The notes beneath the pieces are model-generated. The model saw only the letters and a list, made by a program, of their open reading frames with translations. It searched no databases and had not been told where the DNA came from. From Nitrospiraceae bacterium (GTDB lineage Bacteria; Nitrospirota; Nitrospiria; Nitrospirales; Nitrospiraceae): a stretch of 64,000 bases of DNA. Positions 9,875 through 38,379 of the stretch are shown here, piece by piece (position 1 is the first letter of the stretch; every line of letters starts with the position of its first letter). The position numbers were made by a program, and so were the translations under genes. The stretch lies in NCBI GenBank assembly GCA_919902665.1, contig CAKKRK010000064.1, positions 1 to 64,000 of the forward strand, given 5' to 3'.

Positions 9875-10133
9875 ATGATTTTCCAAGGGCAACGAGATCT
9901 TCTCTTGCTGGCTAACGTGGAGCGTGATGGTGCGGTCATAGGTTGGATTTGTCGATGATACCCAGCAGGAGTCGTTCTTGTCCTATCCGGTTTGGCCGCT
10001 GGAGTCGTTGAGCGGATGGGAGTTCGATGCGGTGGTATTGGCCAATTTCGAGCACACGGCGGGGCACCGTACGACACGTGGACAGTACCAGGTTCCGGAT
10101 AGCAAGGTCATCGCACTTACTCCCGTGATGTAA
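9875..10133 (+). pseudogene. Remnant of a PglD_N-like/Rossmann-type gene, frameshifted
   Basis: Inside the 416-base gap between the GT9 gene and the nusG-like gene, two partial frames join into one sensible protein. ATG 9875 encodes MIFQGQRDLLLLANVERDGA and runs to about 9941. A different frame then continues GFVDDTQQESFLSYPVWPLE and FDAVVLANFEH and ends with PDSKVIALTPVM at 10133. The pattern 'VIGFVDD...pVwpLesL...DAVVLA' resembles the nucleotide-binding N-terminal domain of PglD-like acetyltransferases and related sugar-modifying proteins. A stop at 9939-9941 in the second frame shows it is broken. The rest of the gap (9769-9874, 10134-10184) holds nothing I can name. The family assignment is tentative. 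Confidence 0.45.
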
Positions 10134-10184
10134 GCGCCGCTGCGCGACCGTTTTTCTATGCACTGTAAGTGAGAGGGCGAAGCT

Positions 10185-10721
10185 GTGTCCGATGACAACG
10201 TCTACAGTGACACGGAGCCTAGTCATACCAGCAGTCTTCACTGGTACGCCCTACGTACTAAGTCACGTCACGAAAAACTGGTGCGAGATCAGTTGGACAA
10301 GCAAGGAATCGAGCCGTTGCTCCCGACGGTCAAACGGCTGAGTCAGTGGAAGGACAGGAAAAAGGAAGTCGAGGTCCCGCTGTTCTCCGGGTATTGTTTC
10401 GTGCGGTTTTCTCAGCAGGAGAAGGCGCCGGTGCAAAAAACAACAGGCGTCGTGGAAATCGTCGGCAGCGGAAGCCGGCCTGAACCGATTCCAGAACAAG
10501 AAATCGACGCGCTCCGCCGTCTTATGACGAGCGTCCTTCCGTACGATCCACATCCCTATCTCCATGAAGGCATGAAGGTGGAAGTCGTTCGTGGCCCTCT
10601 GCAGGGGGTTCTCGGAATTCTGATGCGGAAAGAGAAACGACACCGCTTAGTGATCGGAGTGCACCTGATTCAACAAGCGGCGGCGGTCGAAATCGATGTG
10701 AATGATGTGGTGCCGGTGTAA
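10185..10721 (+). CDS. NusG/RfaH-family specialised transcription antiterminator
   Basis: A 178-residue NusG paralog. The N-terminal NGN domain shows HWYALRTKSRHEKLVRDQL and the PLFSGYCFVRF core (residues about 20-120). A C-terminal KOW domain is centred on EVVRGPLQGVLGILM. GTG 10185 follows GAGAGGG. Such paralogs (RfaH, UpxY, LoaP) keep RNA polymerase elongating through long polysaccharide operons. Its position as the first intact gene of the long + strand glycan locus fits that role. It is unlikely to be the housekeeping NusG because no secE or ribosomal protein genes flank it. No exact ops element was found upstream. Confidence 0.85.
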   Translation: MSDDNVYSDTEPSHTSSLHWYALRTKSRHEKLVRDQLDKQGIEPLLPTVKRLSQWKDRKKEVEVPLFSGYCFVRFSQQEKAPVQKTTGVVEIVGSGSRPEPIPEQEIDALRRLMTSVLPYDPHPYLHEGMKVEVVRGPLQGVLGILMRKEKRHRLVIGVHLIQQAAAVEIDVNDVVPV

Positions 10722-10833: not shown

Positions 10834-11799
10834 GTGAATCTCAACGTCGTGTCGTTTCTAGACCCGCAGGTGTATAACGGCGGCGGCGAGATGATCAGTC
10901 GCCGCCTGATCGACGTCGGAGTGGGGCGTGGGCATGACATCAGAGTGTCTTCTGTGCGTCCCAAGAAGAAGGCGCTCCACGCTTCGCCGAATCTTACGCT
11001 ATTGATTGATGTATTCAACTTTGCCCACAGCATCAAGTCGCTGGGGGCCTGGCGCGAATTCGAACCGAGGTTTCTGGAATCGATGATCGAGCGGGCTCCT
11101 TTTGTTCACCTCACCAACGCGTACGTCGATGTTTGCAACTTGCCCTACCTGCCGTGTTCAGGAGAGCGTCTTGATGGATGCCCGGTGAAACCGACGTTGA
11201 ACGTCGTCAAACGATTCATGATCCGTGACTGGAGCGACGACTGTTTTGCGCGACGAGCGTTCGTGCGTCGGCTCTATGAAGCGTCCGCACTCAATGTGTA
11301 CCTTTCACCGTTGCATCGTCGGGTTACGGAATCGCTGCTGGGCAGCAAGCAGCTGCCGCCAAGCTATCTGCTCAAGCCCATGATCGATACGAAAGTTTTT
11401 TCCAATGAACAGCGAGATCGGGATATCGACTATCTCTTTGTGGGCGTGATCGGTGAAGCCAAGGGGTTGGCGGCTATGCGGGAACGGTTCGGACAGACGG
11501 ATATTCATTTGATCGGCCGTTGCGCCCCCGGTATCAAGCCGGACTTTGGACGGCATCTCGGTCACGTATCATATGACGAAGTGCCGCGTTATATGAATCG
11601 GGCCAAGAACTTTGTCTTCTTGCCACGCTGGCCTGAGCCACAGGGGCGTGTGGTGGCGGAGGCGGCCTTGTGCGGTTGCCGGATTATCGGCAATGAGAAT
11701 GTCGGGGCGTTGTCGTTCGACATGGACCTTGCCGATTCTCGATCATATGAGGGGGTTGAGGATGAGTTTTGGACTAGGCTGGAGGAGCTAGCCTGGTGA
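10834..11799 (+). CDS. Glycosyltransferase-like protein (GT-B type)
   Basis: A 321-residue protein beginning NLNVVSFLDPQVYNGGGEM, which resembles the nucleotide-free N-terminal half of GT-B enzymes. The C-terminal half has FVFLPRWPEPQGRVVAEAAL followed by CGCRIIGNENVG, a typical donor-binding pattern of GT4-like transferases with the E-x7-E-like position. The GTG start is weakly supported by the upstream sequence. The 4-base overlap with the next GT2 gene indicates coupling. The transferred sugar cannot be deduced. Confidence 0.65.
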   Translation: MNLNVVSFLDPQVYNGGGEMISRRLIDVGVGRGHDIRVSSVRPKKKALHASPNLTLLIDVFNFAHSIKSLGAWREFEPRFLESMIERAPFVHLTNAYVDVCNLPYLPCSGERLDGCPVKPTLNVVKRFMIRDWSDDCFARRAFVRRLYEASALNVYLSPLHRRVTESLLGSKQLPPSYLLKPMIDTKVFSNEQRDRDIDYLFVGVIGEAKGLAAMRERFGQTDIHLIGRCAPGIKPDFGRHLGHVSYDEVPRYMNRAKNFVFLPRWPEPQGRVVAEAALCGCRIIGNENVGALSFDMDLADSRSYEGVEDEFWTRLEELAW

Positions 11800-12569
11800 G
11801 TGACACATATTCCGCGCCCCTGGTGAGCGTCATCATTCCGGTCCTCCATCTGACCCGCCCGATCAACGCCAAGCGCTTTTTCATGCCCCGGTATACGATT
11901 CGGGAGGTGTTGCGAGATTTGCGCGAGCACGTCACACTTCCGTTCGAGGTGATCGTGATCTGCAACGGCACTGATCCTGAGTTGATCGAGTTCGTGCGGA
12001 CACACGACGCTATCGATAAGTATTGCATCAACAGCGTGAACGCCGGCGTGGGCCGCTCATGGAACATGGGAGCCCAGTTGGCAGAGGCAGAGGTGCTGTG
12101 CTTTCTCAATGATGATGTGGCTGTTGGTCGAGGAGGGATGGAAGCGCTCTATCATGCTCTTCTCGGTTCGGCTGATGTCGGTGAAGTCGGGCCTGCCGGA
12201 TCTAGGTGGAAAGGTGCGCAGCACGAACGATATGCTGGAGAACAAGAGCCTGAAGATGCTGACGTCATTTCGGGGTTTTGCTTCCTGCTGAAGAGTGAGC
12301 TGTTTCATCAGCTGGGAGGTCTCGACATCGCATATACCCCTGCAGGATTCGAGGAGATTGATCTGTCCTTCGCAATTCGCAAAGCGGGATATCGCTGTCT
12401 GGTGATCCCCAAGTTGCCAATTCATCACTATCATCATCACGGAGTGAGCGCCTATCGCACTGAGATCAAGTACTTGAAGACCTCCATCGATACACACGTT
12501 CTTCATCAACGCAATAAGACCTACTTCATGAAAAAATGGGGAATTTCGGATGAAGGAGTCGGCGAGTGA
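11796..12569 (+). CDS. GT2 family glycosyltransferase
   Basis: A GT-A fold transferase of 257 residues: APLVSVIIPVL at the start, NAGVGRSWNMGAQLA, the metal-binding CFLNDDVAV (DxD-like) near residue 106, and the acceptor-side PAGFEEIDLSFAIRKAGYR near residue 185. The C-terminal His-rich HHYHHHG is unusual to the eye but lies in a surface-type loop. It starts at GTG 11796 inside the end of the upstream gene and overlaps the next gene through GTGA at 12566. It is probably cytoplasmic and elongates the glycan repeat. Confidence 0.85.
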   Translation: MSDTYSAPLVSVIIPVLHLTRPINAKRFFMPRYTIREVLRDLREHVTLPFEVIVICNGTDPELIEFVRTHDAIDKYCINSVNAGVGRSWNMGAQLAEAEVLCFLNDDVAVGRGGMEALYHALLGSADVGEVGPAGSRWKGAQHERYAGEQEPEDADVISGFCFLLKSELFHQLGGLDIAYTPAGFEEIDLSFAIRKAGYRCLVIPKLPIHHYHHHGVSAYRTEIKYLKTSIDTHVLHQRNKTYFMKKWGISDEGVGE

Positions 12570-13219
12570 ACCATGTTGAGGCAGGGGGAATGCCGGTAGA
12601 TTATTTCTATCTTAGCCGCAGCGATGTGGCGGCGCTTGTGCCGGCTGACTGTCGTACGATCTTGGAAATCGGGAGTGGATTTGGCGCATTGGGTCGGACG
12701 CTTGCGGCTCGGCAGCCTTGTACGGTCGACGGGGTGGAGATCAATCCGGCTGCCTCGAAGCATCTTGAGCGGCACTATCGGCGGTTTTGGATTGGCGATG
12801 TCGAGCGGATTGAACTTGAAGGGGCCATGCAAGAGTACGATTGTCTGCTGTTTCCTGATGTCTTGGAGCATCTCGTCGACCCCTGGACTGTCTTAGGCCG
12901 CTTCAGTAGATATGTGAAGGCCGGAGGCGTCGTAGTGGCCAGCATCCCCAATGTATGCAATCTCGCGTTGCTCTATCGTCTCATCTTCCAAGGGATGTGG
13001 CAGTACGAAGAGTCAGGGTTGCTAGATCGAGGACATCTCCGTTTTTTTACTCGTAGATCCATTGCCGAACTGTTTTCTTACAGCGGGTTGACGATCGAAA
13101 CTTGGCAGATGAATCGAGACCGGTATGTCGGCATTCGTCGCCTGGCTGCAATCGCAGCGAAGCTTGTGGTGCCTGAAATTGACGTATGCCAGTATTTGGT
13201 CAGAGCTCGCCGAGGATGA
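12566..13219 (+). CDS. Class I SAM-dependent methyltransferase
   Basis: A 217-residue methyltransferase with motif I ILEIGSGFGALGRTLA (residues about 32-47), the acidic GVEIN, and FPDVLEHLVDPW at the motif II/III position. A GGVVVASIPNV strand and the HLRFFTRRSI segment are typical of Methyltransf_23-type proteins found in glycan loci. It is coupled to both neighbours by GTGA and ATGA overlaps, so it is likely part of the same glycan pathway, either O-methylating a sugar or capping the chain. Confidence 0.82.
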   Translation: MNHVEAGGMPVDYFYLSRSDVAALVPADCRTILEIGSGFGALGRTLAARQPCTVDGVEINPAASKHLERHYRRFWIGDVERIELEGAMQEYDCLLFPDVLEHLVDPWTVLGRFSRYVKAGGVVVASIPNVCNLALLYRLIFQGMWQYEESGLLDRGHLRFFTRRSIAELFSYSGLTIETWQMNRDRYVGIRRLAAIAAKLVVPEIDVCQYLVRARRG

Positions 13220-14340
13220 GTGCCTTGGTGGGGCGGAAATTGCTGGTCGTTGCTTCTCTGACGCCTACATCTACGGCAAATTATCTTGTTCACGCATTCA
13301 GACAACTTGGCTGCGAAATCAGAGTGTGCTCCGATGTGGCAAGTGATCTTGCCGATGTGTGTGCTGCTGGAGCAGTGCATGTTTCGCGTGTGATTGCACA
13401 GGTAGGGTTCGAGCCGGATTATGTAGTTTTTGTCGAGGGCGGCAGTATGCGACTGTTGCCGGTTGGTTTGGAGTGTGTGGAGTGTCTGACTGCCTGGTAT
13501 GGCATCGACACCCATATGGACTACGCCAAACATCTTCGGATCGGACGGCTGTTTGACGTGACGTTCCTTGCGCAAAAGGAATATGTCGAGCGCATGCGTG
13601 CTGATGGCATACGTCAAGTTCACTGGCTTCCCCTTGGGTTTGCTGAGGAATTACTGCCGTCCCCGATGCCAGAACGAACAATCGATATCGCCTACGTTGG
13701 TTCGGAACAGGTGGCTGCTAATCCATTACGACACGCGTTGCTGGAGGCGTTGCGCCGTGAATTTTCCTCGACGCGGTTTGGGGCAGCCTCGCCGAATGAG
13801 ATGGGGCGCATCTATGCCGGCGCCAAGCTGGTGTTCAATAAGAGTGTCAACAATGACGTGAATATGCGCTTCTTCGAGGCGGCTGGTGCGGGAGCAGTCC
13901 TCGTGACGGACCGAATCAGCAACAACGGTGTAGAAGAGTTATTTGAGGAAGGGAAACACTACGTATCGTATCAGGACCACGATTCACTCATTCAGGTCAT
14001 GCGGGGCCTGCTGGCTGATCCTCAACGCTGTGCGGCAATCAGTAAAAGTGCCCACCACCATGTCTTGGAGCATCATACCTATCGGCATCGTGCACAGTCT
14101 CTCTTGGCCGTTGCCGGGCGGTGTGAAAAGCTGTCCCCTCCATGCCCTGAAGACTACTTTGCTGCCTGTCTCTCATTGAACTTGCTCAGTGACGCGCTCA
14201 GAATGGCGGCGAAAGCCATTACGGTGTCAACAGGGAGTTCCTATCGTAAGTATGTTGGCACTCTGCTGGTCCTTCTCTTAAATTGGACTGCGCACGTGTT
14301 GGGCTTCGTCGAACGCATGCGTTTCCGCAGAGCCGCATAA
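13216..14340 (+). CDS. CgeB-like glycosyltransferase (Glyco_trans_1_2 type)
   Basis: The start is taken at ATG 13216, whose ATGA overlaps the preceding stop; an in-frame start at 13186 would overlap more. The central VFNKSVNNDVNMRFFEAAGAG and VLVTD segment is typical of CgeB-type glycosyltransferases, which share the GT-B donor site of GT4 enzymes. An N-terminal Rossmann-like half reads KLLVVASLTPTSTANYLVHA. The C-terminus ends with a hydrophobic stretch (about residues 345-365, LLVLLLNWTAHVLGFV), possibly a membrane contact. This is the last gene before a 461-base gap. Confidence 0.75.
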   Translation: MSALVGRKLLVVASLTPTSTANYLVHAFRQLGCEIRVCSDVASDLADVCAAGAVHVSRVIAQVGFEPDYVVFVEGGSMRLLPVGLECVECLTAWYGIDTHMDYAKHLRIGRLFDVTFLAQKEYVERMRADGIRQVHWLPLGFAEELLPSPMPERTIDIAYVGSEQVAANPLRHALLEALRREFSSTRFGAASPNEMGRIYAGAKLVFNKSVNNDVNMRFFEAAGAGAVLVTDRISNNGVEELFEEGKHYVSYQDHDSLIQVMRGLLADPQRCAAISKSAHHHVLEHHTYRHRAQSLLAVAGRCEKLSPPCPEDYFAACLSLNLLSDALRMAAKAITVSTGSSYRKYVGTLLVLLLNWTAHVLGFVERMRFRRAA

Positions 14341-14801
14341 TTCTTATGGATCTTCCCAGATTTTTATCAGGGATGGTGGTCCAGATGCCTAGTATTTCCC
14401 CTCCCGTGACTCCCCGCTTGCAGTTACCTGGATGAGGTTCGGTTCTGGAACGAGCGATGCATCTTTGTAGGAGCGTTTCTAGTGCACAATCTGAACGAGC
14501 GTGTGCTCGCTGCGCTCAATTGCCTCAAACGCCAGAAGTGTAATGACCACAGGGTCGTATGGCTCTATCTGTCTGGCGCCTAAGAACCCTGCTTTTTCTA
14601 TTGCAGAGAGAGTAATACTGTCGGCACCGTGAGATGAATAGATGGTTGGTCAGTATTGTAGTAGTCGGGTGTGTGCACGGCATGTCGAATAATCGTAAGG
14701 GGTGTATCTCGGGCTCGCAAACCTTCAGTTGAGTTTCCTGTCAAGTTCATGTAGACGAATATGAATCAATCGAATGATGAGCTTTACGAAGTAGGAGACC
14801 A
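14341..14801 (+). other. 461-base intergenic region before the E1-alpha gene
   Basis: No gene can be supported here. A stop-free stretch of 58 codons (14410-14583) has no good start or recognisable family. A small palindrome CGAGC-GTGT-GCTCG lies near 14495 but lacks a following T tract, so I do not call it a terminator. The length and the position, just before the E1/PLP/heptose block, make this a reasonable place for an internal promoter. I could not find a convincing -35/-10 pair. Confidence 0.4.
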
Positions 14802-15767
14802 ATGGTGACGAAGAATTGTACGGAGTCTCAGCTGCTCAGTGAGCTGTATCGGGGGATGTACCGTATCCGTTTCGTCGAAGAACGAATCGTCAAGATCTAC
14901 CACACCGATAAAATTAAGAGCCCCGTGCATTTGTCGATCGGTCAGGAAGCGCCGTCGGTCGGCGTGTGCGCCGCACTGAGGCCGACGGACGTTGTCTTTG
15001 GAACGTATCGAGGGCATGCTTTGTATCTTGCAAAAGGCGGAGATCTGAACCGCATGGTCGCGGAGCTATATGGAAAGGCGTCCGGCGTGGCCAAGGGTAA
15101 GGCTGGCTCAATGCACCTGGCCGATGCGTCCGTGCTGATGATGGGGACGTCGGCGATTGTTGCTACGACTATTCCTCATGCTGTGGGGTATGCACTGGCT
15201 GAAAAGTTTCGTGGACGTGACACCGTCGTCGCCGTATTTTTCGGAGACGGTGCGTCAGAGGAGGGGGTACTTCATGAGAGTGCCAATTTTGCTGCACTGC
15301 ATATGTTGCCCGTGCTCTTCGTGTGTGAAAATAATTTTTATGCCATCCACACGCCGCTAAAAAGTCGCGTGCCTATGCCGAACTATTGCGCAAGGATGGA
15401 AGCCTACGGCATCCCTTCCAGGAAGATTTTACGAAACAATGTCCTAGAAACCGCGCAGACAGCGGGAGAAATGATCGGTCAAATGCGAGAAGGACGAATC
15501 GGTCCGGCATTTCTGGAGATTGAAACCTATCGCTGGCGTGAACATGTGGGGCCGGGTGAAGATTGGGCGCTGGGGTATCGGTCGCGCGAAGAGGCTGAAC
15601 CGTGGATCCGAGGAGATGAAGTCGAGCGCATTGGGTGCCAGCTGGACCTCGATGTGCGTACCTCTATAGATCATGCGGTTGAAATGGAAGTCGAGACTGC
15701 GTTCCGATTGGCCGAGGAAGCGGCATTTCCATCCGATGAGGAGTTACTCACCGATGTCTTTCAGTAA
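14802..15767 (+). CDS. Thiamine-diphosphate dehydrogenase E1 alpha-like subunit
   Basis: A 321-residue protein of the pyruvate/acetoin dehydrogenase E1-alpha family. The ThDP-binding GDG...NN motif is intact: GDGASEEGVLHESANFAAL, ending CENNFYAI near residue 180. The N-terminal HLSIGQEAPSVGV and the TYRGHALYLAKGG segment with its active-site His also match the family. No E2 lipoyl acyltransferase or E3 gene is present anywhere in the window, and the following genes make deoxy sugars, so a role in central metabolism is unlikely. I infer that it decarboxylates a 2-oxoacid such as pyruvate and, with the beta subunit, transfers the two-carbon unit onto a keto sugar. Confidence 0.85.
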   Translation: MVTKNCTESQLLSELYRGMYRIRFVEERIVKIYHTDKIKSPVHLSIGQEAPSVGVCAALRPTDVVFGTYRGHALYLAKGGDLNRMVAELYGKASGVAKGKAGSMHLADASVLMMGTSAIVATTIPHAVGYALAEKFRGRDTVVAVFFGDGASEEGVLHESANFAALHMLPVLFVCENNFYAIHTPLKSRVPMPNYCARMEAYGIPSRKILRNNVLETAQTAGEMIGQMREGRIGPAFLEIETYRWREHVGPGEDWALGYRSREEAEPWIRGDEVERIGCQLDLDVRTSIDHAVEMEVETAFRLAEEAAFPSDEELLTDVFQ

Positions 15768-16812
15768 CGCCGTGCGCGAGTTGAGTTATGCGGATGCTCT
15801 GTATGAAGCTACAGTTCAGGAGATGGAACGCGATGACAACGTCTTCGTGTTTGGTCTGGGCGTCGATGATCCGAAAGGCATGTATGGTACGACGAAAGAT
15901 CTTCATCATCGGTTTGGGGCCAAACGCAATTTCGATACGCCTCTCTCTGAAGATGCAATGACGGGGGTGGCAATTGGTGCGGCGCTCGCCGGTATGCGGC
16001 CGATCCACGTCCATCAGCGCATGGACTTCTTGCTGCTCTGCATGAACCAACTCATCAATGTGGCCGCGAAGTGGAGTTACATGTTCGGCGGAGCGTTCCG
16101 GGTGCCGCTCGTCGTGAGGGCGATTGTGGGGCGGAGTTGGGGGCAGGGGGCGCAGCACAGTCAATCGTTGCATGCCCATTTCATGCACGTGCCTGGGATC
16201 AAGGTCGTTGCGCCGACGACTCCGCATGATGCGAAAGGCTGTATGATCGCCGCCATTCGCGACAATAATCCGGTCATTGTCGTCGAACACCGCATGCTCT
16301 ACTCCAATCGAGGCATGGTCCCTTCCGAACCGTACACGGTGGAGTTCGGCAAGGCTCGTGTGCTGACTCAAGGTGGTGATCTGACGATTGTGGCCATTTC
16401 TCATATGGTGGTCGAAGCCGTGCGGGCCAGTCACCACTTGGCTGAAGTTGGGATCCATGCGGAAGTCATCGATCCGGTCAGCCTCAGCCCGCTGGATGCC
16501 CAGACGATTCAGACATCGGTACAGAAGACAAGACGTCTGCTCGTTGTCGATCATAGCTGGGTCGAGACGAGCGCCGCGTCAGAAATTGTGGCTCTTGTCG
16601 CGGAATCCTTGAATGGGGATCCAGGAGTGCGCTTCAAACGCATGGGCTTCGCGCCTGTGCCCTGTCCGACCACAAAGCCGCTCGAAAACCTGTTCTATCC
16701 CAACTCGCGAACCATTGCGCAGGCGGGATATCGGCTTGTGACGAATCGAGAGGATTGGGTGCCGGAGGGCAAGGAAGCGAACGAAATCGCCGAATTTAAA
16801 GGACCATTTTAA
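15754..16812 (+). CDS. Thiamine-diphosphate dehydrogenase E1 beta-like subunit
   Basis: The E1-beta partner, about 352 residues. ATG 15754 overlaps the end of the alpha gene by 14 bases. The transketolase-type pyrimidine domain shows TPLSEDAMTGVAIGAALAG, with the Glu that activates the cofactor, followed by RPIHVHQRMDFLLLCMNQ and RSWGQGAQHSQSLHA. The C-terminal domain ends with RMGFAPVPCPTTKPLENLF. Overlapping coding and matched families imply an alpha2beta2 enzyme. Its stop abuts the start of the PLP enzyme, tying it to sugar deoxygenation rather than to energy metabolism. Confidence 0.85.
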   Translation: MSFSNAVRELSYADALYEATVQEMERDDNVFVFGLGVDDPKGMYGTTKDLHHRFGAKRNFDTPLSEDAMTGVAIGAALAGMRPIHVHQRMDFLLLCMNQLINVAAKWSYMFGGAFRVPLVVRAIVGRSWGQGAQHSQSLHAHFMHVPGIKVVAPTTPHDAKGCMIAAIRDNNPVIVVEHRMLYSNRGMVPSEPYTVEFGKARVLTQGGDLTIVAISHMVVEAVRASHHLAEVGIHAEVIDPVSLSPLDAQTIQTSVQKTRRLLVVDHSWVETSAASEIVALVAESLNGDPGVRFKRMGFAPVPCPTTKPLENLFYPNSRTIAQAGYRLVTNREDWVPEGKEANEIAEFKGPF

Positions 16813-18144
16813 ATGGCTGACAATCTGTATTCGGCGCTTGCAGTGAGCCATGTCGACGGATGTGATGCGGTATGGCAGAACATACAGGAAGGCATTCTGG
16901 AGTATTGCCGGCAGCATCATAAGTTCGGGTTTGACCAGGCGAAACCCGCCGTCCGTCTTCATGAGCCAACGTTTAGCGCAGATGAAATCATCGCGGCTCT
17001 AGAGGTCTTGCTGAGCACACGAGTCACGATGGGGCCGAAGGTCAACGCCTTCGAGCGGCAATTCGCTCAATCCGGGGGATTCGCGCATGCAGTAAGCAAC
17101 AACTCAGGATCGTCCGCGAATCTCTTGGCGGTCGCCGCGTTGACGAATCCGGCGCGGGAGGGGCATCTCCGGCCGGGGGATGAAGTCATTGTGTCGGCTC
17201 TATCCTGGTCGACCACGATTTGGCCGTTGATCCAACATCAGCTTGTGCCCGTCATCGTCGATATCGATCCTGTGACCTGGAACATCGATCCGAATGAGGT
17301 TGAACGCGCCATCGGCCCGAGGACCAGAGCCGTCATGCCTGTGCATGTCTACGGCAATCCCTGCGACATGCGGGCATTGTCGGACATTTGTCGGCGACGA
17401 GGGTTGCTGCTCATCGAAGATTGTTGTGAGGCACTCGGTGCCTACTATGAGGGAATGCCAGTGGGGCGTTTCGGCAAGGTCGGCACCTTCAGTTTTTATT
17501 TCTCCCATCACATCACCACGCTCGAAGGAGGCATCTGCGTCACGGATGATTTCGAGCTGGTCGAGATGATGCGGATCCTTCGCGCGCACGGGTGGACTCG
17601 CGAACTTGAGGACCGCGACCGGTACGCGAAAAAGTACCCTGAAATCGATCCGCGCTTTCTGTTCGTCAATTTGGGGTATAACCTGCGCATGACCGAGTTG
17701 CAGGGCGTGATGGGAACGGTGCAGCTTCCCAAATTGGCCGGGTTCGTCGACCAGCGACGTGAGACCAGTGAGATATGGCAGAAGGAGTGGTCTGAATGGG
17801 GCAATGTCTTTCAGTTTCAGCAAGAAACCCCCGGTGGGCGAACTTCAGCGTTCGGGTTTCCCGTGCTGGTGAAGCCAACTGCTCCGTTCACGGTCGGAGA
17901 CATCGCCGTCGCTCTCAATGCCGCCGCCATCGAAACGAGGCCGATCATTTGTGGCAACATTGCGAAGCAACCGGCGATGCAGCTCTTCGATCATCGAGTT
18001 TCTGGGAGTTTGGCACATGCGACGCGAGTCATGGAGTCTGGTTTCTCCATTGGAAACCATCAGGCCGTGGATGCTGAGGCTCGTGCCTATGTGACCGGAA
18101 CGATCGCAAAATTTATGAGTCACCAGGGTAAGGTGAAGAAATAG
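16813..18144 (+). CDS. ColD/RfbH-like PLP-dependent sugar 3-dehydratase
   Basis: A DegT/DnrJ/EryC1-fold protein of 443 residues. Where the aminotransferases carry the Schiff-base Lys, this protein reads SFYFSHHITTLEGG, placing His232 at that position. The Lys-to-His change defines the 3-dehydratase branch (ColD, and RfbH/DdhC), which removes the C3 hydroxyl of a 4-keto-6-deoxy nucleotide sugar. The Cys cluster that binds [2Fe-2S] in RfbH is absent from the following region (RAHGWTRELEDRDRY), which favours the ColD-like, PMP/glutamate mechanism. The N-terminus is about 50 residues longer than in ColD. It directly follows the E1 pair and directly precedes a 4,6-dehydratase-like gene. Confidence 0.83.
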   Translation: MADNLYSALAVSHVDGCDAVWQNIQEGILEYCRQHHKFGFDQAKPAVRLHEPTFSADEIIAALEVLLSTRVTMGPKVNAFERQFAQSGGFAHAVSNNSGSSANLLAVAALTNPAREGHLRPGDEVIVSALSWSTTIWPLIQHQLVPVIVDIDPVTWNIDPNEVERAIGPRTRAVMPVHVYGNPCDMRALSDICRRRGLLLIEDCCEALGAYYEGMPVGRFGKVGTFSFYFSHHITTLEGGICVTDDFELVEMMRILRAHGWTRELEDRDRYAKKYPEIDPRFLFVNLGYNLRMTELQGVMGTVQLPKLAGFVDQRRETSEIWQKEWSEWGNVFQFQQETPGGRTSAFGFPVLVKPTAPFTVGDIAVALNAAAIETRPIICGNIAKQPAMQLFDHRVSGSLAHATRVMESGFSIGNHQAVDAEARAYVTGTIAKFMSHQGKVKK

Positions 18145-18146
18145 CG

Positions 18147-19166
18147 ATGGCACGTCCGCGCGCTCTAATCACCGGCATCACGGGGATGGTGGGGTCGCAT
18201 CTCGCCGAGTATTTACTGGCGCAGACGGATTGGGAGCTCTACGGCATGTGCCGGTGGAGGAGTTCGCTTTCCAACGTGGAAGCGATGATTCCACGCATCA
18301 ATGCAAAAGACCGGGTGATGCTGCTCTATGGAGATTTGCGCGATACGCTGTCGGTTCAGGAAGCCGTCAAGAAATCTGCGCCAGACTATGTGTTTCACTT
18401 GGCGGCACAGAGCTTTCCCCGGACCAGCTTCGATGCCCCCTTGGACACGCTCGATACCAACATTCAAGGAACCGCCCGCCTACTTGATGCGCTGCGTGCC
18501 ACAAGTCCTCAAGCGCTTGTGCATGTGTGCTCGTCCTCGGAGGTGTTCGGGCGAGTGCCGCAAGCAAAGCTGCCCATCAACGAAGAGTGTACCTTTCATC
18601 CGGCCTCTCCCTATGCGATTTCAAAAGTCGGGACAGATCTAATCGGTCGATTCTATGCCGAGGCCTACGGCATGACCGTCATGGTCACGCGGATGTTTAC
18701 GCATACGGGGCCTCGGCGTGGCGACGTCTTTGCCGAGTCTACGTTCGCCAAGCAAATCGCTATGATCGAGCAGGGCTTTATTCCTCCGGTCGTCAGAGTG
18801 GGCAATCTGAAATCGCTACGGACGGTCGCTGATGTGCGGGATGCCGTACGCGCCTACTACATGTTGCTCACCATCAATCCTATCGCCGGCGAATATTATA
18901 ACATCGGTGGCACCTGTACGGTGACGGTTGAGGAAATTCTGCGGACGCTTATCGAGTTGTCGACTTGTGCCGGCCGCATCTCCGTGGAAGTGGACCCGGA
19001 ACGATTGCGCCCGATCGATGCGGATCTCCAGGTGCCTGATATCTCGAAATTCAGTCGACATACGGGGTGGAAGCCGGAAATTCCCTTCACGCAAACGATG
19101 CAGGATTTGCTGGAGTACTGGAGAGGTCGCATCAAACGGGAAGGCAACGTTTTTCTTACACGATGA
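18147..19166 (+). CDS. GDP-mannose/GDP-heptose 4,6-dehydratase-like protein
   Basis: An extended SDR of 339 residues with TGITGMVGSHLAEYL (NADP site), the GMCRWRSSLSNVE segment similar to the nucleotide-binding region of Gmd, the SSSEVFG catalytic Ser-Glu pair and SPYAISKVGTD (YxxxK). RTVADVRDAVRAYY and GWKPEIPFTQTMQDLLEYWR complete the family pattern. Gmd relatives act on GDP-mannose, or on GDP-D-glycero-alpha-D-manno-heptose (DmhA-type). The HddC and HddA genes immediately downstream make the heptose substrate attractive. The product, a 4-keto-6-deoxy sugar, would feed the PLP 3-dehydratase. Confidence 0.82.
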   Translation: MARPRALITGITGMVGSHLAEYLLAQTDWELYGMCRWRSSLSNVEAMIPRINAKDRVMLLYGDLRDTLSVQEAVKKSAPDYVFHLAAQSFPRTSFDAPLDTLDTNIQGTARLLDALRATSPQALVHVCSSSEVFGRVPQAKLPINEECTFHPASPYAISKVGTDLIGRFYAEAYGMTVMVTRMFTHTGPRRGDVFAESTFAKQIAMIEQGFIPPVVRVGNLKSLRTVADVRDAVRAYYMLLTINPIAGEYYNIGGTCTVTVEEILRTLIELSTCAGRISVEVDPERLRPIDADLQVPDISKFSRHTGWKPEIPFTQTMQDLLEYWRGRIKREGNVFLTR

Positions 19167-19912
19167 ATGGGCCTGTTGCGAAACACTCGATTCCCGATTG
19201 CATCGTCCTGGCTGGAGGGGTAGGGTCTCGATTGAGAGGTGTGTTGCCGGAAGGAGTTCCTAAGATCCTTGCTCCCGTGGCCGGCAAACCGTTTGCATGG
19301 TGGTTGATTCAGCAGCTGTATCAACAGGGGGTTCGATATGTGGTATTGGCATTGGGGTACGGGGCTACTAGGGTACAGGAGAGCATTGCCGCAGAAGCGT
19401 GGCCGGGGGATCTGACCATTCAAACCGTGGTAGAGGAAAGTCCGTTAGGGACAGGGGGAGCGCTCAGGTGTGCGCTCGATTCGACACAGAGCGATCCGGT
19501 CCTGCTAGTCAATGGCGATACGTTAACGGATGTGGACCTTCATGAGCTTGTTGCTTGTCATGTCAGGAATCATGCCTCGGTGACCATGGCGCTTGCCGAC
19601 GTGCCGGATGCAAGCCGATACGGCGCAGTGGCCTGTCTGGCTAATGGTCTTGTCACAGGGTTTGAAGAGAAGTCACAGAAAACGGCTCTACCTCGGCTCA
19701 TTAATGCAGGCGTATATTGCCTTGCGCGTCGATGGGTGGCTGAGATTCCCGTAGAAAAGACGCTGTCGTTGGAACGCGAGTTACTTCCTCCCATGATCGG
19801 TCAAGGTTTTTTCGCTTGCCGGGTTGTGCATCGCTTCATAGATATCGGTACACCGTTGTCACTACGCGAGGCCGGAGAGTTCATCACTCAGCCAGTGGGG
19901 GGACAATTATGA
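19163..19912 (+). CDS. hddC: HddC-like heptose-1-phosphate guanylyltransferase
   Basis: A nucleotidyltransferase of about 249 residues starting at ATG 19163, inside the ATGA overlap with the upstream stop. The N-terminal VLAGGVGSRLRGVLPEGVPK has the GxGxRL and Lys signature of sugar-1-phosphate nucleotidyltransferases. It is followed by EESPLGTGGALR and VNGDTL (metal-binding Asp). Short length without an extra domain and pairing with a GHMP kinase fit HddC (GTP plus D-glycero-alpha-D-manno-heptose 1-phosphate to GDP-heptose). A hexose-1-phosphate substrate cannot be excluded. Confidence 0.78.
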   Translation: MNGPVAKHSIPDCIVLAGGVGSRLRGVLPEGVPKILAPVAGKPFAWWLIQQLYQQGVRYVVLALGYGATRVQESIAAEAWPGDLTIQTVVEESPLGTGGALRCALDSTQSDPVLLVNGDTLTDVDLHELVACHVRNHASVTMALADVPDASRYGAVACLANGLVTGFEEKSQKTALPRLINAGVYCLARRWVAEIPVEKTLSLERELLPPMIGQGFFACRVVHRFIDIGTPLSLREAGEFITQPVGGQL

Positions 19913-20949
19913 TCATTAGTCGGACGCCGTTTCGCGTCTCCTTTTTTGGAGGAGGAACTGATTATCCGACCTGGTTTTGTGATCATGGAGGCAAAGTACT
20001 GACCAGCACGATCAACCGGTATTGCTACATCACCGCGCGGTATCTGCCGCCGTTCTTCGACCAACGGAATCGAATTGTGTGGTCAAAGATCGAGACAGTC
20101 GATGCGACGGATGAGATCGAACATCCCGCAGTGAGGGCTGGTTTACAGTTCTTGGACGTTCGCGAGGGGGTGGAGATTCATCACGTCGGCGATCTCCCGG
20201 CTCGAAGTGGTCTTGGCTCCAGCTCGGCTTTTACGGTCGGCCTGCTCCATGCGTTGTATGCCTTGAAGGGTGTGATGGCGAACAAGCCTCGATTGGCGGA
20301 CGACGCCATTTATATCGAGCAGCAAATGCTCAAGGAGGCTGTCGGGATTCAGGATCAGGTTCAGGTGGCGCATGGCGGTATCAACCTCATCGAAATCCCA
20401 TGTGATGGTAAGTACCAAATTTCTCCGGTCATCATGCCGCTTGAGCGCACGCACGAATTTGAAAGCCGGTTGATGTTGTTTTTTACTGGGATCTCACGGT
20501 TTGCATCGGAAATCGCCGAGTCGCAGATCAAGGCAATTCCCAACAAAACCAGAGAGCTGGAAGCCATGAGGGCCATGGTAGACGAGGCGTTGCACGTGCT
20601 CGTAGGCAGAGGCAGCTTGGATGACTTCGGACGGCTGTTGCACGAATCCTGGCTGCTCAAGCGGAGTCTCACTTCCAGGATTTCCAGTCAAAAAGTCGAC
20701 GACATTTACGAAGAGGCTCGGCGGGCGGGAGCGATTGGCGGCAAGTTGCTGGGAGCCGGCGGGGGTGGGTTCATGCTGTTCTACGTGCCTCTTGCCCATC
20801 AGCAGCAGGTGCGTGATGCCCTCTCAAAATTGCTGGAGATCCCGTTTTGTTTTGAACATATGGGAACACAGATCATTTTCTGCGACCCCGGTACCCGAGG
20901 GGCTTCTTATAACTCCGGTTACCCGATGATGGCGAGTGTGGCCAGATGA
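19909..20949 (+). CDS. hddA: HddA-like D-glycero-alpha-D-manno-heptose 7-phosphate kinase (GHMP family)
   Basis: A GHMP kinase of about 346 residues. ATG 19909 overlaps the hddC stop. The N-terminus IISRTPFRVSFFGGGTDYP matches the HddA/fucokinase-type subgroup. The phosphate-binding loop is LPARSGLGSSSAFTVGLLHA near residue 100. GAIGGKLLGAGGGGFMLFY near the C-terminus is the third GHMP motif. HddA makes heptose 1,7-bisphosphate, which GmhB (fused to WaaF at 4771) would dephosphorylate before HddC acts. GmhA, the isomerase that starts the pathway, is not in this window. Confidence 0.85.
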   Translation: MIISRTPFRVSFFGGGTDYPTWFCDHGGKVLTSTINRYCYITARYLPPFFDQRNRIVWSKIETVDATDEIEHPAVRAGLQFLDVREGVEIHHVGDLPARSGLGSSSAFTVGLLHALYALKGVMANKPRLADDAIYIEQQMLKEAVGIQDQVQVAHGGINLIEIPCDGKYQISPVIMPLERTHEFESRLMLFFTGISRFASEIAESQIKAIPNKTRELEAMRAMVDEALHVLVGRGSLDDFGRLLHESWLLKRSLTSRISSQKVDDIYEEARRAGAIGGKLLGAGGGGFMLFYVPLAHQQQVRDALSKLLEIPFCFEHMGTQIIFCDPGTRGASYNSGYPMMASVAR

Positions 20950-20985
20950 TCGTTTATGCGAATAAAAAAGTCCTTCTCATCTGAG

Positions 20986-21047
20986 GCGCCGGTCTCATCG
21001 GCTGACTGCTGCCGGCGCTTGTAGTACCGGACTCCACAGGATCCGGT
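20986..21047 (+). promoter_or_regulatory. Two consecutive stem-loops in the gap before the radical SAM gene
   Basis: The 218-base gap 20950-21167 holds two inverted repeats. The first pairs GCGCCGG (20986-20992) with CCGGCGC (21012-21018) around a 19-base loop and can extend by an A-U and a G-U pair. The second pairs ACCGGA (21026-21031) with TCCGGT (21042-21047). Neither is followed by a T run, so they look less like intrinsic terminators than like folded leader RNA or an mRNA-stability element. I could not match the cobalamin riboswitch consensus, although the next gene is a B12-binding enzyme. Confidence 0.3.
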
Positions 21048-21167
21048 TGGTGTTATAGGAGGATTTCTCTCTCGTGTTCGTAGATGTAGATAGGCGATCC
21101 CCTGAACCGATCCATCAGTCGTGTATCATCTGAGGGATGGATCAACTTTCAAAGGTGAGACATCCAA

Positions 21168-23153
21168 ATGAATAGCTCTGGTAGTCCCATAAAAGTCGGT
21201 CTCGTGCAAATCAACAATAGTTTTTCCAATCAGAACTACCTGCCGCTCGCAGTTGGAATGCTGCAGGCATATGCCCAAGCTTTTTTGCAGCAACCAGAGA
21301 GGTTCGAGTTTCTGTTGCCGGTATATAAGAGAGTTCCTGTCCCCCACGCGGTGGAGAAGCTGTTGTGCGCGGATATCATACTGATGAGCGTGTACGTGTG
21401 GAACTTCAGGATATCCCTCAAAATCGCTGAAGAGCTGAAACGTCGCCGCCCTGAGGCGGTCATCGTGTTTGGCGGACCTCATGTGCCCGAGCGTGACGAC
21501 ATGTTCCTCAAACGCTATCCGTTTATTGATATCGCTTGTCATGGGGAGGGTGAGCAAGTCGCATTGGCGGTCCTGGAAAACTTTACCGTGAGAAATTGGT
21601 CTCAGGTTCCATCCATCAGCTATGTTGATCAGAGGGGTGCCGTTGTCAAGAATCCGCGTGTCGGGAGAGTCAAGGACCTTTCGGTATTTCCCTCTCCCTA
21701 TCTTGCCGGTGTATTTGAGCCTCTTATGGTTGCGAACCCATCCGAGCATTGGATCGCGCTCTGGGAAACGAATCGAGGGTGTCCCTTCGCCTGTACCTTT
21801 TGTGATTGGGGATCTGCGGTGGCGAGCAAGGTCTATGGCTTCGACCTTGAGCGTATCTATAAAGAGGTAGAGTGGTTTTCGAACCGGAAGATCGAGTTTG
21901 TCTTCTGCTGTGATGCAAACTTCGGCATCCTATCCCGTGACGTTGATATCGCGAGTTATGTCGCCGAATCAAAGAAGAAGACGGGGTTTCCGCAGGCCTT
22001 GTCGGTTCAAGCGACGAAGAATGCGACGGAGCGGGCGTATATGACTCAGAAAATCTTGGCCGATGCCGGTCTGAATAAGGGGGTAGATATCGCCCTCCAG
22101 TCGATGGATCCCGACACACTGAAAAGCATCAAGCGGGGCAATATTTCGACCGCGACGTACCAAGAACTGCAGAGAAGGTTTATTCAGGACAAAGTGGATA
22201 CCTATACGGATCTCATTCTCGGGCTACCCGGGGAAACATACGAAACGTTCTCCCGCGCGGTCACGACCATTATTGACAATGGGCAGCATAACCGAATTCA
22301 GTTCAATAATCTGTCTATTCTCCCGAATGCAGAGATGGGGGACCCGGAGTATCAAGAAAAGTATGGAATGGTGACGGTCGAGTCGAGAACGATCAATATC
22401 CACGGTTCCCTGGCAGAATCTCCTGACGAGGTATTTGAAACGCAGTTGCTTGTTGTCGGGACGAAGGCGATGCCAGAGCCGGAGTGGGTTCGCACACGGG
22501 CTTTTTCCTGGATGGCGGCGTTTCTCTATTTTGATAAAGTCTTGCAGATTCCCCTGACGCTCATCCATGGCCTGTGTCAGGTGAGTTACAAGGAGCTATT
22601 CGAGCTATTTTCTGAGGCAACCCATGAGGAATATCCGATTCTTGCGTCAGTGAGACAATTCTTTCTTGATAAAGCCAGGGAGATCCAGCAGGGAGGCCCT
22701 GAATATTGTCAGTCTTTTGAATGGCTGAATATCTGGTGGCCGGCTGACGAGTACATGCTGATCAAGCTGTGTTACGAGGATAAGCTGTCGGCTTTTTTTT
22801 CCGAGGCGGAGCAGATGTTGACTCAGGCGTTGGAGAAGCGGCAATTAGCGTTTCCCGCACAGCTGCTGCACGAATCCATGGAACTCAATCAAGGGCTCAT
22901 CAAGCGACCGTTTCAGATCGAGGATCTGGAGGTCGCAGTTTCTTGCAATATCTGGGAGTATTATCGGGCCGTCATTTCAGGGCAACAGATTCCGCTGGAG
23001 CCCAAGCTTCTCAAACACAATATTGACCGAACCAGCAAGATTTGGAGTTCGTGGGATCTTTGGTGCCAAGAAGTCATTTGGTACGGCAATAAGCGTGGAG
23101 CGTATCTGTATGGGAATAATATTGTAGAACCTCAGTTGTCTGGCCATTTCTGA
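21168..23153 (+). CDS. B12-binding domain radical SAM protein
   Basis: A 661-residue protein. The N-terminal region (about 1-140) resembles the cobalamin-binding fold with VFGGPHVPER and IACHGEGEQ. The radical SAM core begins at about residue 200 with NRGCPFACTFCDWG, the CxxxCxxC that holds the [4Fe-4S] cluster. LILGLPGET follows further on. The classical DxHxxG cobalamin-ligand motif is not evident. Members of this class often methylate unactivated carbon or phosphorus, and in a deoxy-sugar locus a C-methyl group on a sugar is a plausible product (inference). The C-terminal 200 residues are Trp/Tyr/Glu-rich and unassigned. Confidence 0.82.
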   Translation: MNSSGSPIKVGLVQINNSFSNQNYLPLAVGMLQAYAQAFLQQPERFEFLLPVYKRVPVPHAVEKLLCADIILMSVYVWNFRISLKIAEELKRRRPEAVIVFGGPHVPERDDMFLKRYPFIDIACHGEGEQVALAVLENFTVRNWSQVPSISYVDQRGAVVKNPRVGRVKDLSVFPSPYLAGVFEPLMVANPSEHWIALWETNRGCPFACTFCDWGSAVASKVYGFDLERIYKEVEWFSNRKIEFVFCCDANFGILSRDVDIASYVAESKKKTGFPQALSVQATKNATERAYMTQKILADAGLNKGVDIALQSMDPDTLKSIKRGNISTATYQELQRRFIQDKVDTYTDLILGLPGETYETFSRAVTTIIDNGQHNRIQFNNLSILPNAEMGDPEYQEKYGMVTVESRTINIHGSLAESPDEVFETQLLVVGTKAMPEPEWVRTRAFSWMAAFLYFDKVLQIPLTLIHGLCQVSYKELFELFSEATHEEYPILASVRQFFLDKAREIQQGGPEYCQSFEWLNIWWPADEYMLIKLCYEDKLSAFFSEAEQMLTQALEKRQLAFPAQLLHESMELNQGLIKRPFQIEDLEVAVSCNIWEYYRAVISGQQIPLEPKLLKHNIDRTSKIWSSWDLWCQEVIWYGNKRGAYLYGNNIVEPQLSGHF

Positions 23154-23286
23154 TCTCCGGTCTCGCCGTCTAGAGAGTCAGAGTCGGATGCGCGGAATTA
23201 TCTGGTCCCGTTCCATACTGAGTTCGAGCTTCAGGTGTTCTCGTCTTCATCCTCCCATTACATAGGGTAAAGCGCGGCTTTCACCA

Positions 23287-24249
23287 ATGAATTATCGTCA
23301 GCTTGGCCGGACCGGCATCCAGGTGTCAGAAATTGGTTTCGGAGCATGGGGGATCGGGGGGGCCATACGCGGCTCGATCTCCTATGGCCCTACAGACGAC
23401 CAGGAAAGTCGAGAGGCACTCAAACGAGCCTTTGAAAAGGGCATCACGTTTTACGATACCGCTGATTTATATGGGTATGGGCATAGTGAGCGATTGATCG
23501 GAGAGACGTTTCAGTCGAAACGTGATCAGGTGGTTATTGCATCAAAGGTAGGAAGGCTCGATCAGGATGGGGCTCAAGACTTTTCACCGGTTCATATCCG
23601 CAGGTCACTTGATGAGAGCTTGAAGCGATTGAAGACGGACTACCTCGATTTGTACCAATTGCATGATCCTCCGATGAAACTTCTTGAGGATGCTCCGGAG
23701 ATTTGCGAGACGCTGAGGTCATTGAAGCAGACAGGGGCGATTCGTGCATGGGGGATTTCGCTCAAGGAGCCTGCTGATGGCGTGGCGGCCATCACGAAAT
23801 TTCGGTGTGATGCCGTGCAGGTCAATTTCAATATGATCGACCAGCGCATCATTGCGATGGGCCTCCTCCAGTGTTGTCGTGAGGAAGGAGTTGGGCTGGT
23901 CTCCAGGACGCCCCTCTGCTTCGGCTTTCTAACAGGCGAATATTCTGCGGCCATGCAATTTGATGCACACGACCATCGTGGTCGGTGGTCGACGGCTCAA
24001 CGAGAACTCTGGGCCAATGCAAACCAAGCTTTTGCTGAGTTGAAGCGAAGAGAGAAGGAGAGCCTTGCGCAGCAAGCCTTGAGATATTGTCTTTCTTACG
24101 CAGAGGTTTCAACAGTGATCCCAGGCATGCTCCGAGCCAAAGAAGTAGATGACAATATTGACGCAAGCCGATTGGGGCCTTTGGAAGACCATGAGCGGGA
24201 CACGATTGAGTCGATATACAAGAGCGCCACGTTTTTTGTGAAGAAATAA
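23287..24249 (+). CDS. Aldo/keto reductase
   Basis: A TIM-barrel NADPH reductase of 320 residues. The catalytic tetrad is visible: Asp and Tyr in TFYDTADLYGYG, Lys in VVIASKVG, and His in LYQLHDP. The start RQLGRTGIQVSEIGFGAWG is typical of the family. It follows the radical SAM gene after 133 bases in which I see no feature. Because it sits with another SDR and an Fcl-like reductase, it is a candidate for reducing the keto group of the modified sugar or its two-carbon branch. The physiological substrate is unknown. Confidence 0.88.
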   Translation: MNYRQLGRTGIQVSEIGFGAWGIGGAIRGSISYGPTDDQESREALKRAFEKGITFYDTADLYGYGHSERLIGETFQSKRDQVVIASKVGRLDQDGAQDFSPVHIRRSLDESLKRLKTDYLDLYQLHDPPMKLLEDAPEICETLRSLKQTGAIRAWGISLKEPADGVAAITKFRCDAVQVNFNMIDQRIIAMGLLQCCREEGVGLVSRTPLCFGFLTGEYSAAMQFDAHDHRGRWSTAQRELWANANQAFAELKRREKESLAQQALRYCLSYAEVSTVIPGMLRAKEVDDNIDASRLGPLEDHERDTIESIYKSATFFVKK

Positions 24250-24295
24250 CGGCATTGATCGGCCTGACGGTCGAGCACAACGCTCTCCAGTAATC

Positions 24296-25054
24296 ATGAT
24301 AAATCCAGTCGGTCAGAGGCCCATACTTGTTGTGACGGGTGCAAGTGGGGGGATCGGTTCTGCGACAGTGGCGTTAGCCGCGAGTAGGGGGTTTGCCGTC
24401 GTGCTGGGCTATCATGCTCATGAAGATCGGGCACGAATGCTCGAAGAGACAATTCGGAAGTCAGGAGGCCATGCGCAGGCAATGCCCGTAGATGTGGCAG
24501 ATCCTGAGTCTGTGCAAACATTCTTTGCTCGGATCGATCGGGATGTTGGACGTCTCGCTGGGGTTGTGTTGGCGGCGGGGATGAGCGGAGGCGTCTCACG
24601 GCTCAGCGACCTGAGGCCAGAGGATATTGCGCGGGTGGTGAACGTGAATTTTCTTGGCGTGCTCTATTGCGCTCGTGAAGCTGCCACGTGGATGGCGCGG
24701 TCGCGGGGCGGCCATGGCGGTAGTATTGTCAGCCTGTCGTCGGAAGCCGCCAAATTTGGAGGAAACAAGCTTGTGCCGTATGCCGCGGCCAAAGCCGGCG
24801 TGAGCACAATGACCATTGGGCTCGCACGAGAGTTGGCGTCCGAAGGCATACGGGTGAATGCGGTAAGTCCAGGGATTATCGATACGGAACAACATGGGCG
24901 AATGGATACGGATCGACGAGCCGGGCTGGTCAATAGTATCCCAATGGGACGCATGGGGCGATCGGAGGAGGTTGCGGAATGTGTCTTGTGGCTTCTTTCC
25001 GACAGCGCAAGCTATGTGACCGGCGCAATTTTGTCGGTCCACGGTGGGCGTTAG
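24296..25054 (+). CDS. Short-chain dehydrogenase/reductase (FabG-like)
   Basis: A classical SDR of 252 residues: TGASGGIGSATVALA for cofactor binding, the Ser in IVSLSSEAAKFGG, and YAAAKAGVST (YxxxK). A C-terminal SDSASYVTGAILSVHGG is typical of FabG-type enzymes. In a fatty-acid context it would be called a 3-oxoacyl reductase. Here it stands between an aldo/keto reductase and an Fcl-like SDR, so reduction of a sugar ketone is equally possible. Confidence 0.85.
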   Translation: MINPVGQRPILVVTGASGGIGSATVALAASRGFAVVLGYHAHEDRARMLEETIRKSGGHAQAMPVDVADPESVQTFFARIDRDVGRLAGVVLAAGMSGGVSRLSDLRPEDIARVVNVNFLGVLYCAREAATWMARSRGGHGGSIVSLSSEAAKFGGNKLVPYAAAKAGVSTMTIGLARELASEGIRVNAVSPGIIDTEQHGRMDTDRRAGLVNSIPMGRMGRSEEVAECVLWLLSDSASYVTGAILSVHGGR

Positions 25055-25070
25055 AGGGATTGCACGATCC

Positions 25071-26036: not shown

Positions 26037-26611
26037 GCCAAGACAAGGTAGGCCGATACGAGTGGTTGAACCGGAGGAGTGCATGCCGCAATCAGCGTCT
26101 TGAAGTGTTTTTCGACACTGTCCGCACAGGGGATGGTGTGACTGTGTCGGACTTCATGGTCGTGCGGCCTCTCATCCGCACAACTGGCAATGTCTGCGGC
26201 GTTTGCATCCTTCCGGAAGTTGACGGAAAAATCGGGCTCATGCGGGTGTACCGGCATCAGCTTAATGAGGAAGTCTGGCAGGCACCGGCAGGATTCGTCG
26301 AGGTGAATGAAGCGCCGGCGGACACCGCTTTGCGTGAATTGCAGGAAGAGACTCCAGTGAGGTGCATGCCTGATCGAGTGGAGTCATTGGGCCTCTATCT
26401 TCCCGACGCAGGTTTGATCGATGGATATGTAGCATTGTTTGTCGCTCGTGAAAGTGTTCTGTCAAGCGATCACTCTGGAACCGACAGAGAGATCGGGGTC
26501 GGTGGGCTTCATTTCTTCGACCGAACCGCGCTCAAGAGATTGGTGATGTCCTCGTCCGATGTGGGCGGAAGTACATTAGTTGCCTGCCTCCGGGTGCTTT
26601 CGGGGCCATGA
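26033..26611 (+). CDS. Nudix hydrolase
   Basis: A 192-residue Nudix protein beginning at ATG 26033 in an ATGA overlap. The Nudix box reads GFVEVNEAPADTALRELQEE followed by TPV, so the catalytic RE..EE residues are present while the usual Gly near the end of the box is Pro. VWQAPAGF before the box resembles the ADP-ribose/ADP-sugar pyrophosphatase branch. In a nucleotide-sugar locus it could cleave a nucleotide-sugar side product or a GDP-sugar. Substrate unknown. Confidence 0.83.
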   Translation: MSQDKVGRYEWLNRRSACRNQRLEVFFDTVRTGDGVTVSDFMVVRPLIRTTGNVCGVCILPEVDGKIGLMRVYRHQLNEEVWQAPAGFVEVNEAPADTALRELQEETPVRCMPDRVESLGLYLPDAGLIDGYVALFVARESVLSSDHSGTDREIGVGGLHFFDRTALKRLVMSSSDVGGSTLVACLRVLSGP

Positions 26612-26701
26612 CGTCTTCTCGATAGAGCGCAAGCGCACGGCGTTCATTTTTCATGATTGACCAGTGGGAGGCGTAGTGGTCGAGAAACGGCTGGATTAAG
26701 T

Positions 26702-27577: not shown

Positions 27578-27620
27578 CAAGATCAGCCGTCCCACGATCT
27601 ATCGCTAAAATGTAGATAGC

Positions 27621-28571: not shown

Positions 28572-28619
28572 GATTGTTCAGCCACCCTGGTGCACGATTG
28601 GCTGAGGCGAAGGAGGAAA

Positions 28620-31061: not shown

Positions 31062-31062
31062 C

Positions 31063-33143: not shown

Positions 33144-33150
33144 ATAAGAA

Positions 33151-38366: not shown

Positions 38367-38379
38367 GAAAGTCTTCTAT

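Follow-up and report, generated by a model that had tools for sequence, protein, structure and literature searches.

A conserved 25-nt element on the start codon of a Nitrospiraceae upxY gene, predicted to be a pause and loading site for its NusG paralog

A conserved 25-nt element, CTGTAAGTGAGAGGGCGAAGCTGTG, lies at positions 10163..10187 on the + strand of the window (the whole 64,000-nt stretch of Nitrospiraceae DNA analyzed here) and sits on the start codon of upxY, a gene for a NusG paralog that heads a long run of glycan genes. From its conservation in relatives, the element is predicted to be an RNA polymerase pause and UpxY loading site, i.e., the equivalent of ops; we give a probability of about 0.8 to this reading, which comprises pausing, a non-template hairpin, reading by the NGN domain, antitermination, and feedback, and which is drawn from sequence comparisons. 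The original prediction had noted that no exact ops sequence was visible and had supposed a loading signal of another kind. The former was correct, since the six best sites in a scan of the window have two mismatches each; the latter is not supported, as an ops-type element on the start codon is conserved among relatives. The conserved sequence that the prediction had proposed seeking in relatives between 9769 and 10840 is this element.

The upxY ORF (10185..10721, + strand; GTG start, 178 aa) scored 127.1 bits against the NCBIfam UpxY model NF033644, above the cut-off of 100, and 83 bits against Pfam NusG PF02357 (cut-off 22.2), in agreement with the earlier description of a stand-alone NusG-family protein. 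It remained below the curated cut-offs of the RfaH model TIGR01955 (88.3 of 144.5 bits) and the LoaP model NF033641 (65.5 of 125 bits), and is an ordinary member of the UpxY family. The genome to which the window belongs (3.56 Mb in 240 contigs, 99.86% complete) contains one UpxY gene over the cut-off. A gene on another of its contigs (G000:C232), with 92.3 bits for PF02357 and only 43.2 for the UpxY model, is presumably the housekeeping NusG, and the window gene would thus be a second, specialized copy. A third NusG paralog is present in this genome as a decayed fragment with stops at a contig end (G000:C130:139-309; L003, L037). The AF2 model of the window protein (pLDDT 89.8, pTM 0.80) consists of an NGN domain and a KOW domain of beta strands, with the proviso that AF2 may miss an alternative fold in which KOW is alpha-helical and autoinhibiting; a Foldseek search with the model returned RfaH and NusG (e.g., 8pen, TM-score 0.87 by target length). 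Family membership, position, and the single matching element in the whole genome support the view that this NusG paralog is dedicated to the operon; it may also be the single switch of the surface polysaccharide that the original prediction supposed.

Lipid A and core genes lie 5' of upxY on the same strand and are followed by a 416-nt gap (9769-10184), the sole content of which is a decayed ORF split over two frames (9875..10133, + strand), as judged by three-frame translation of the window and of loci L010, L013, and L031; upxY is the first intact gene after it. The latter three loci have an intact ORF in this place, directly before the element, and by eye its start resembles a helix-turn-helix and its end a nucleotide-binding protein, so that it is perhaps a regulator. 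Downstream of upxY, ORF tiling and Pfam matches define a set of co-directional, mainly glycan genes (10834..63998, + strand) that is the presumed target of antitermination. Large + strand ORFs tile to the end of the window and then on to ~69,119 of contig C64 (beyond the window, ORF sizes only were used), and the run stops before two - strand ORFs at 69,137-71,249 of the contig. Its length of ~59 kb exceeds the 36 kb that had been predicted as a minimum, and the placement of upxY as the first intact gene before co-directional glycan genes likewise stands. The Pfam scan was confined to 31 downstream ORFs; by our reading, 21 of the 31 are glycosyltransferases, nucleotide-sugar enzymes, flippase-like, or Wzy/ligase-like proteins, seven are other or general enzymes, and three have no match at threshold. 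By its position and the Pfam content of these 31 ORFs, upxY heads a polysaccharide operon, which is presumed to be a single transcript. The next ORF (10834-11799) has a weak Pfam glycosyltransferase match and gave no NCBIfam match, UpxZ-like or other. Six scans for promoter-like and terminator-like sites over 6.4-64 kb gave counts of 11, 5, and 10 versus shuffle values of 10.0, 14.4, and 11.4, and 15, 20, and 21 versus 14.8, 20.4, and 18.0, none of them exceeding its shuffle value by more than one standard deviation. There is thus no hint of the several strong internal promoters that had been named as the observation to speak against a single switch, such scans of course being weak evidence.

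Several parts can be recognized within the element. The upstream box TGTAAGTGA (10164..10172, + strand), a predicted upstream duplex contact at the pause, is strongly conserved in class I, though mostly within the search pattern; class II loci have TGGGACT.A-type boxes in its place at unchanged spacing. GAGAGGG (10171..10177, + strand) reads as a probable Shine-Dalgarno sequence overlapping the element. GCGAAGC (10177..10183, + strand; element positions 13-19) is predicted to form a mini-hairpin in non-template DNA with a GC stem and a GNA loop. The middle base of this loop is A in 72% and G in 28% of 39 non-redundant family sites (mismatches allowed), with no others. The predicted pause position (-1/+1) is occupied by T/G (10186..10187, + strand); among 83 non-redundant cross-phylum sites, which were chosen on positions 1-19 only, 96% have T at position 22, 89% have a purine at 23, and 98% have T before the search pattern. 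The consensus pause pattern has G at -10, a pyrimidine at -1, and G at +1, and the element has G10177, T10186, and G10187 at these positions. In place of the ops core GGCGGTAGC, 10163-10187 contains GGCGAAGC. Exact ops (GGCGGTAGCGTG) is absent from the window, and the six sites with two mismatches were dismissed as being at the shuffle level (mean, 5.08). A search of the operon for further sites with a 15-nt core and up to three mismatches gave three matches, the element and two others at three mismatches, versus a shuffle mean of 2.38, and these were likewise discarded. Ungapped alignment of the element with the E. coli rfb ops element gave 14/25 identity, a value reached by 114 of 127,950 25-mers of the window, and sequence alone is thus not decisive for homology.

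The 23-mer GTAAGTGAGAGGGCGAAGCTGTG (10165-10187), which overlaps the GTG, has only one site in its own genome at up to three mismatches. With up to five mismatches it is found upstream of upxY in 29 of the family's 30 best UpxY loci, and the one without it, L004, belongs to a different genus and carries a related core. Allowing up to three mismatches, 83 of 147 family genomes contain a total of 91 sites (reversed control, 0/147), and a looser pattern matched in 91 of 295 phylum genomes (reversed control, four genomes). Conservation drops outside about -3 to +27 in the family sites and 0 to +23 in the cross-phylum sites. An over-cut-off UpxY gene lies within 5 kb on the same contig in 81 of the 91 family sites, always on the same strand (81 versus 0 opposite), and 80 of these 81 sites are upstream of upxY; the remaining 10 have no over-cut-off UpxY gene within 5 kb on their contig. 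Counted by genome, 81 have both element and UpxY, 21 UpxY only, two the element only, and 43 neither (Fisher value 9e-19, which, like the other co-occurrence statistics, ignores relatedness). The distance from the element to the NGN match is 47-218 nt in 45 of the 81 linked sites, 521-703 nt in 29, and other in seven. Five of the longer-spaced loci were translated (L006, L009, L022, L025, and L032), and each has an ORF between the element and upxY. By eye, this ORF resembles the four-helix-bundle 23S rRNA intervening-sequence proteins.

Nineteen of the 21 genomes with UpxY only (all but G086 and G116) contributed a total of 20 loci. In all 20 regions, upxY is preceded by a variant form of the element with the core GGGCG[AG]AGC, and 13 have the class II box TGGGACTCA; class II elements were also found in many of 40 further loci, mostly those of second and third paralogs. 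A third class is formed by ten lower-scoring paralogs from another clade in the same genus; in these, the ops core GGCGGTAGC is located at -74 to -94 relative to the NGN start. Most of the ten, including L230, L236, and L242, have a CCGGT..ACCGG-type inverted repeat just before GGCGGTAGC, possibly a pause hairpin. In a family set assembled blind to the motif (89 ORFs: 29 + 21 + 39, with L027 and L254 dropped as identical proteins and L214 providing two ORFs), the interval from -1300 nt to 700 nt after the ORF contains an exact core on the same strand in 81/89 and on the opposite strand in 4/89, the latter count being a control for chance and not for relatedness. The eight ORFs lacking an exact core are those of L212, L219, L222, L238, L248, L252, L255, and L256. 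A one-mismatch core is present in L219, L222, L248, and L252, whereas L212 contains GGGCGAAGC but lacks the T position, and L255 and L256 (genomes G001 and G023) have a site 21-25 kb downstream. In genus g18 (L200-L216), upxY is often followed by an ORF that by eye resembles an IS3 OrfA-type helix-turn-helix protein.

The element classes follow the paralog clades. Arginine at the position corresponding to RfaH residue 73 is found in all ten class III proteins, in none of 38 class II proteins, and in 7 of 78 class I proteins (7/116 for classes I and II); it is thus not exclusive to class III, and it also occurs in 1 of 12 proteins from loci without a classified element (11 none, one unclear). 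In a reduced tree of 82 rows, a branch with 99/97 support separates seven class III proteins and E. coli RfaH from the GNA-type proteins; RfaH is a long branch, and the root was placed at the midpoint.

A scan of genome contigs for GTAACTGARAGGGCGRAGC yielded 89 stretches, which belong to Nitrospirota, Desulfobacterota, Bacteroidota, Acidobacteriota, Spirochaetota, Planctomycetota, Nitrospinota, and others; UpxY genes were sought with a profile built from 30 family UpxY proteins. One lies beside the site on the same strand in 30 of 81 cases and on the opposite strand in none, and in 27 of the 30 the site comes after upxY. Cross-phylum sites with no linked UpxY may be distant targets, may reflect missed UpxY genes, or may be chance matches. 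A UpxY gene over the cut-off is present in 46 of the 49 genomes with cross-phylum sites, and these 49 have 1-7 sites each at up to two mismatches, with one match in all for the reversed control. Among the best-scoring over-cut-off UpxY loci taken without regard to the element, it was found on the same strand in 6/30 from Bacteroidota, 12/20 from Desulfobacterota, 6/20 from Acidobacteriota, and 18/30 from Thermodesulfovibrionia, and on the opposite strand in one, zero, one, and zero, respectively. This gives 42/100 loci outside the family, versus 2/100 for the opposite strand; seven of the 100 are from genomes first reached via the element (six positive), and 36/93 remain without them. UpxY loci below the cut-off had any core in 3/20 and 0/20 on the opposite strand. 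Outside the family, the element is therefore common but far from universal, and most of the Bacteroidota loci examined are without it. An ORF of at least 120 aa starts within 900 nt of the site in 62 of 90 cases (the longest was taken) and is absent in 28. The commonest Pfam assignments of the 62 proteins, as raw counts, are polysaccharide export (six), GDP-mannose dehydratase/epimerase (five), and phosphomannomutase (five). At L079 and two other loci (3/62 proteins) the element is followed by a phage-integrase family ORF and not by a glycan gene.

We propose that RNA polymerase entering the operon would pause at 10163-10187, the RNA then ending at T10186, and that a small hairpin, GC-GNA-GC in analogy to the GC-GGTA-GC of ops, could form in the non-template strand of the bubble. 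The loop and the upstream duplex box would be read by the NGN domain of UpxY, which would bind the polymerase; UpxY would then exclude the housekeeping NusG and travel with the enzyme through the long glycan operon. Reading of the upstream box by the NGN domain and its hairpin loop is suggested by analogy with RfaH, which touches the upstream duplex there (PMC11001881, partial text). Because the element both precedes and overlaps upxY, loading would also favor the upxY transcript, a positive feedback, and because the element precedes upxY in the family and often follows it elsewhere, this feedback may differ between lineages. For the hairpin, the core GGCG-N-AGC-NN-TG allows an ops-type stem with a loop one base shorter and retains the 12-nt GG-to-TG spacing. 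With the DNA parameters of ViennaRNA, the GNA-core hairpin had an MFE of 0, whereas ops cores do fold; covariation lent no support in the family sites, where all stem bases are invariant but for one position at 97%. A 9-mer, CGCGAAGCG, that contains the core heptamer is described as an extraordinarily stable DNA hairpin (PMC10527192, in part), which speaks for plausibility only. A second hairpin, CACT-GTA-AGTG in the upstream box, was considered and rejected by eye, as GTAACTG sites mostly have no complementary base before GTA.

The element might instead be conserved merely as a translation start for upxY expression, consisting of Shine-Dalgarno sequence and GTG. GAGAGGG does lie 7 nt before GTG 10185 in the window, and in many family loci translation could begin at the GTG of the element. 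However, 29 of the 81 linked family sites are 521-703 nt before the NGN match, with another ORF between in the five such loci translated, so the element is not merely a ribosome site; nor is it tied to the start codon, as its distance from upxY varies and in other phyla most linked sites follow the gene. Moreover, the GTG is replaced by GTA, GTC, CTA, and others, yet T22 and the upstream box are kept. The distant sites thus largely refute this explanation, and we consider it very improbable. We think equally little of the possibility that the element is a promoter or the DNA site of another regulator and accompanies upxY by chance. Its strong conservation, mostly non-coding location, and placement before operons would suit such a site, but the element overlaps the start codon or follows upxY, has upxY on the opposite strand in 0/81 linked family sites and 0/81 cross-phylum sites, and exists in variants that track the paralog subclade.

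Somewhat less remote, but still unlikely, is an action of the element as RNA, with UpxY or another factor binding a hairpin of the nascent transcript. LoaP provides a precedent (PMC12691694, partial text); leaders carry the element on their sense strand, and class III loci have their inverted repeat just upstream. The constant 12 nt from GG to TG despite the difference in loop length, and the link between R73 and the ops core, both fit reading of non-template DNA better, and loading of UpxY through a paused non-template hairpin is the explanation we prefer.

Among known systems, RfaH/ops of E. coli is similar in that both proteins are NGN-KOW paralogs of NusG and both are accompanied by a 12-nt GG...TG pause-type element on the sense strand of a leader. 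They differ in the loop (GNA versus GGTA in ops), in the location of the window upxY gene within its own operon, in the KOW domain, which is predicted as beta strands with no alpha hairpin, and in the residue at RfaH position 73, which is T and not R in the window protein. PMC5995543 and PMC11001881 describe pairing of G2:C9, C3:G8, and G4.A7 in the ops hairpin, and reading of G5 and T6 by RfaH. Residue R73 of RfaH lines the T6 pocket. Stem pairs G2:C and C3:G, and G4.A, are possible in both elements (PMC11001881). LoaP of Bacillus is also a specialized NusG paralog of a long operon, but it uses an RNA hairpin (PMC12691694), and the window protein falls short of the LoaP cut-off.

Bacteroides UpxY is of the same protein family and is likewise at the head of long polysaccharide operons, where the partner gene upxZ follows upxY. 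UpxY recruitment reportedly also proceeds via non-template DNA in the study of Saba et al. 2024, and its recruitment through upstream duplex DNA is taken from the same study as cited in PMC12691694. UpxY is reported to prevent premature termination within the 5' leaders that precede upxY (PMC7819879). In contrast to the Bacteroides arrangement, the gene after the window upxY has no UpxZ-like match, the window genome has one over-cut-off UpxY with one element, and only 6/30 of the Bacteroidota UpxY loci examined have the element. The accessible part of PMC7593976 places upxZ after upxY in Bacteroides and notes two UpxY proteins without UpxZ, so membership in the family does not call for UpxZ.

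What is new here, as far as the open-licence literature extends, is the element (of which we found no published description there), along with where it occurs and how it covaries with the paralog clade; reading of DNA by UpxY has already been reported for Bacteroides by Saba et al. 2024, which lies outside that literature. We lean slightly toward the broader view that a single bipartite loading element of ancient origin, consisting of an upstream box and a GC-GNA-GC pause hairpin, is common to the UpxY-type paralogs of Nitrospirota, Desulfobacterota, Acidobacteriota, Spirochaetota, Planctomycetota, and part of Bacteroidota. In this view it is a sister form of ops, and the loop and box sequences co-evolve with NGN, such that different operons would be addressed by different paralogs of the same genome. 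The recruitment of operon-encoded NusG paralogs was called unknown in 2020 (PMC7593976, in part), and PMC11001881 raises the question of whether different factors are recruited by non-template hairpins that differ in their loop bases. The present data link a conserved element with a different loop to a different paralog clade across phyla, while in sister paralogs from the same genus the true ops core and R73 again go together; the reading code is therefore directly testable in vitro. The element also provides a search string for the regulons of a UpxY-type factor in uncultured bacteria.
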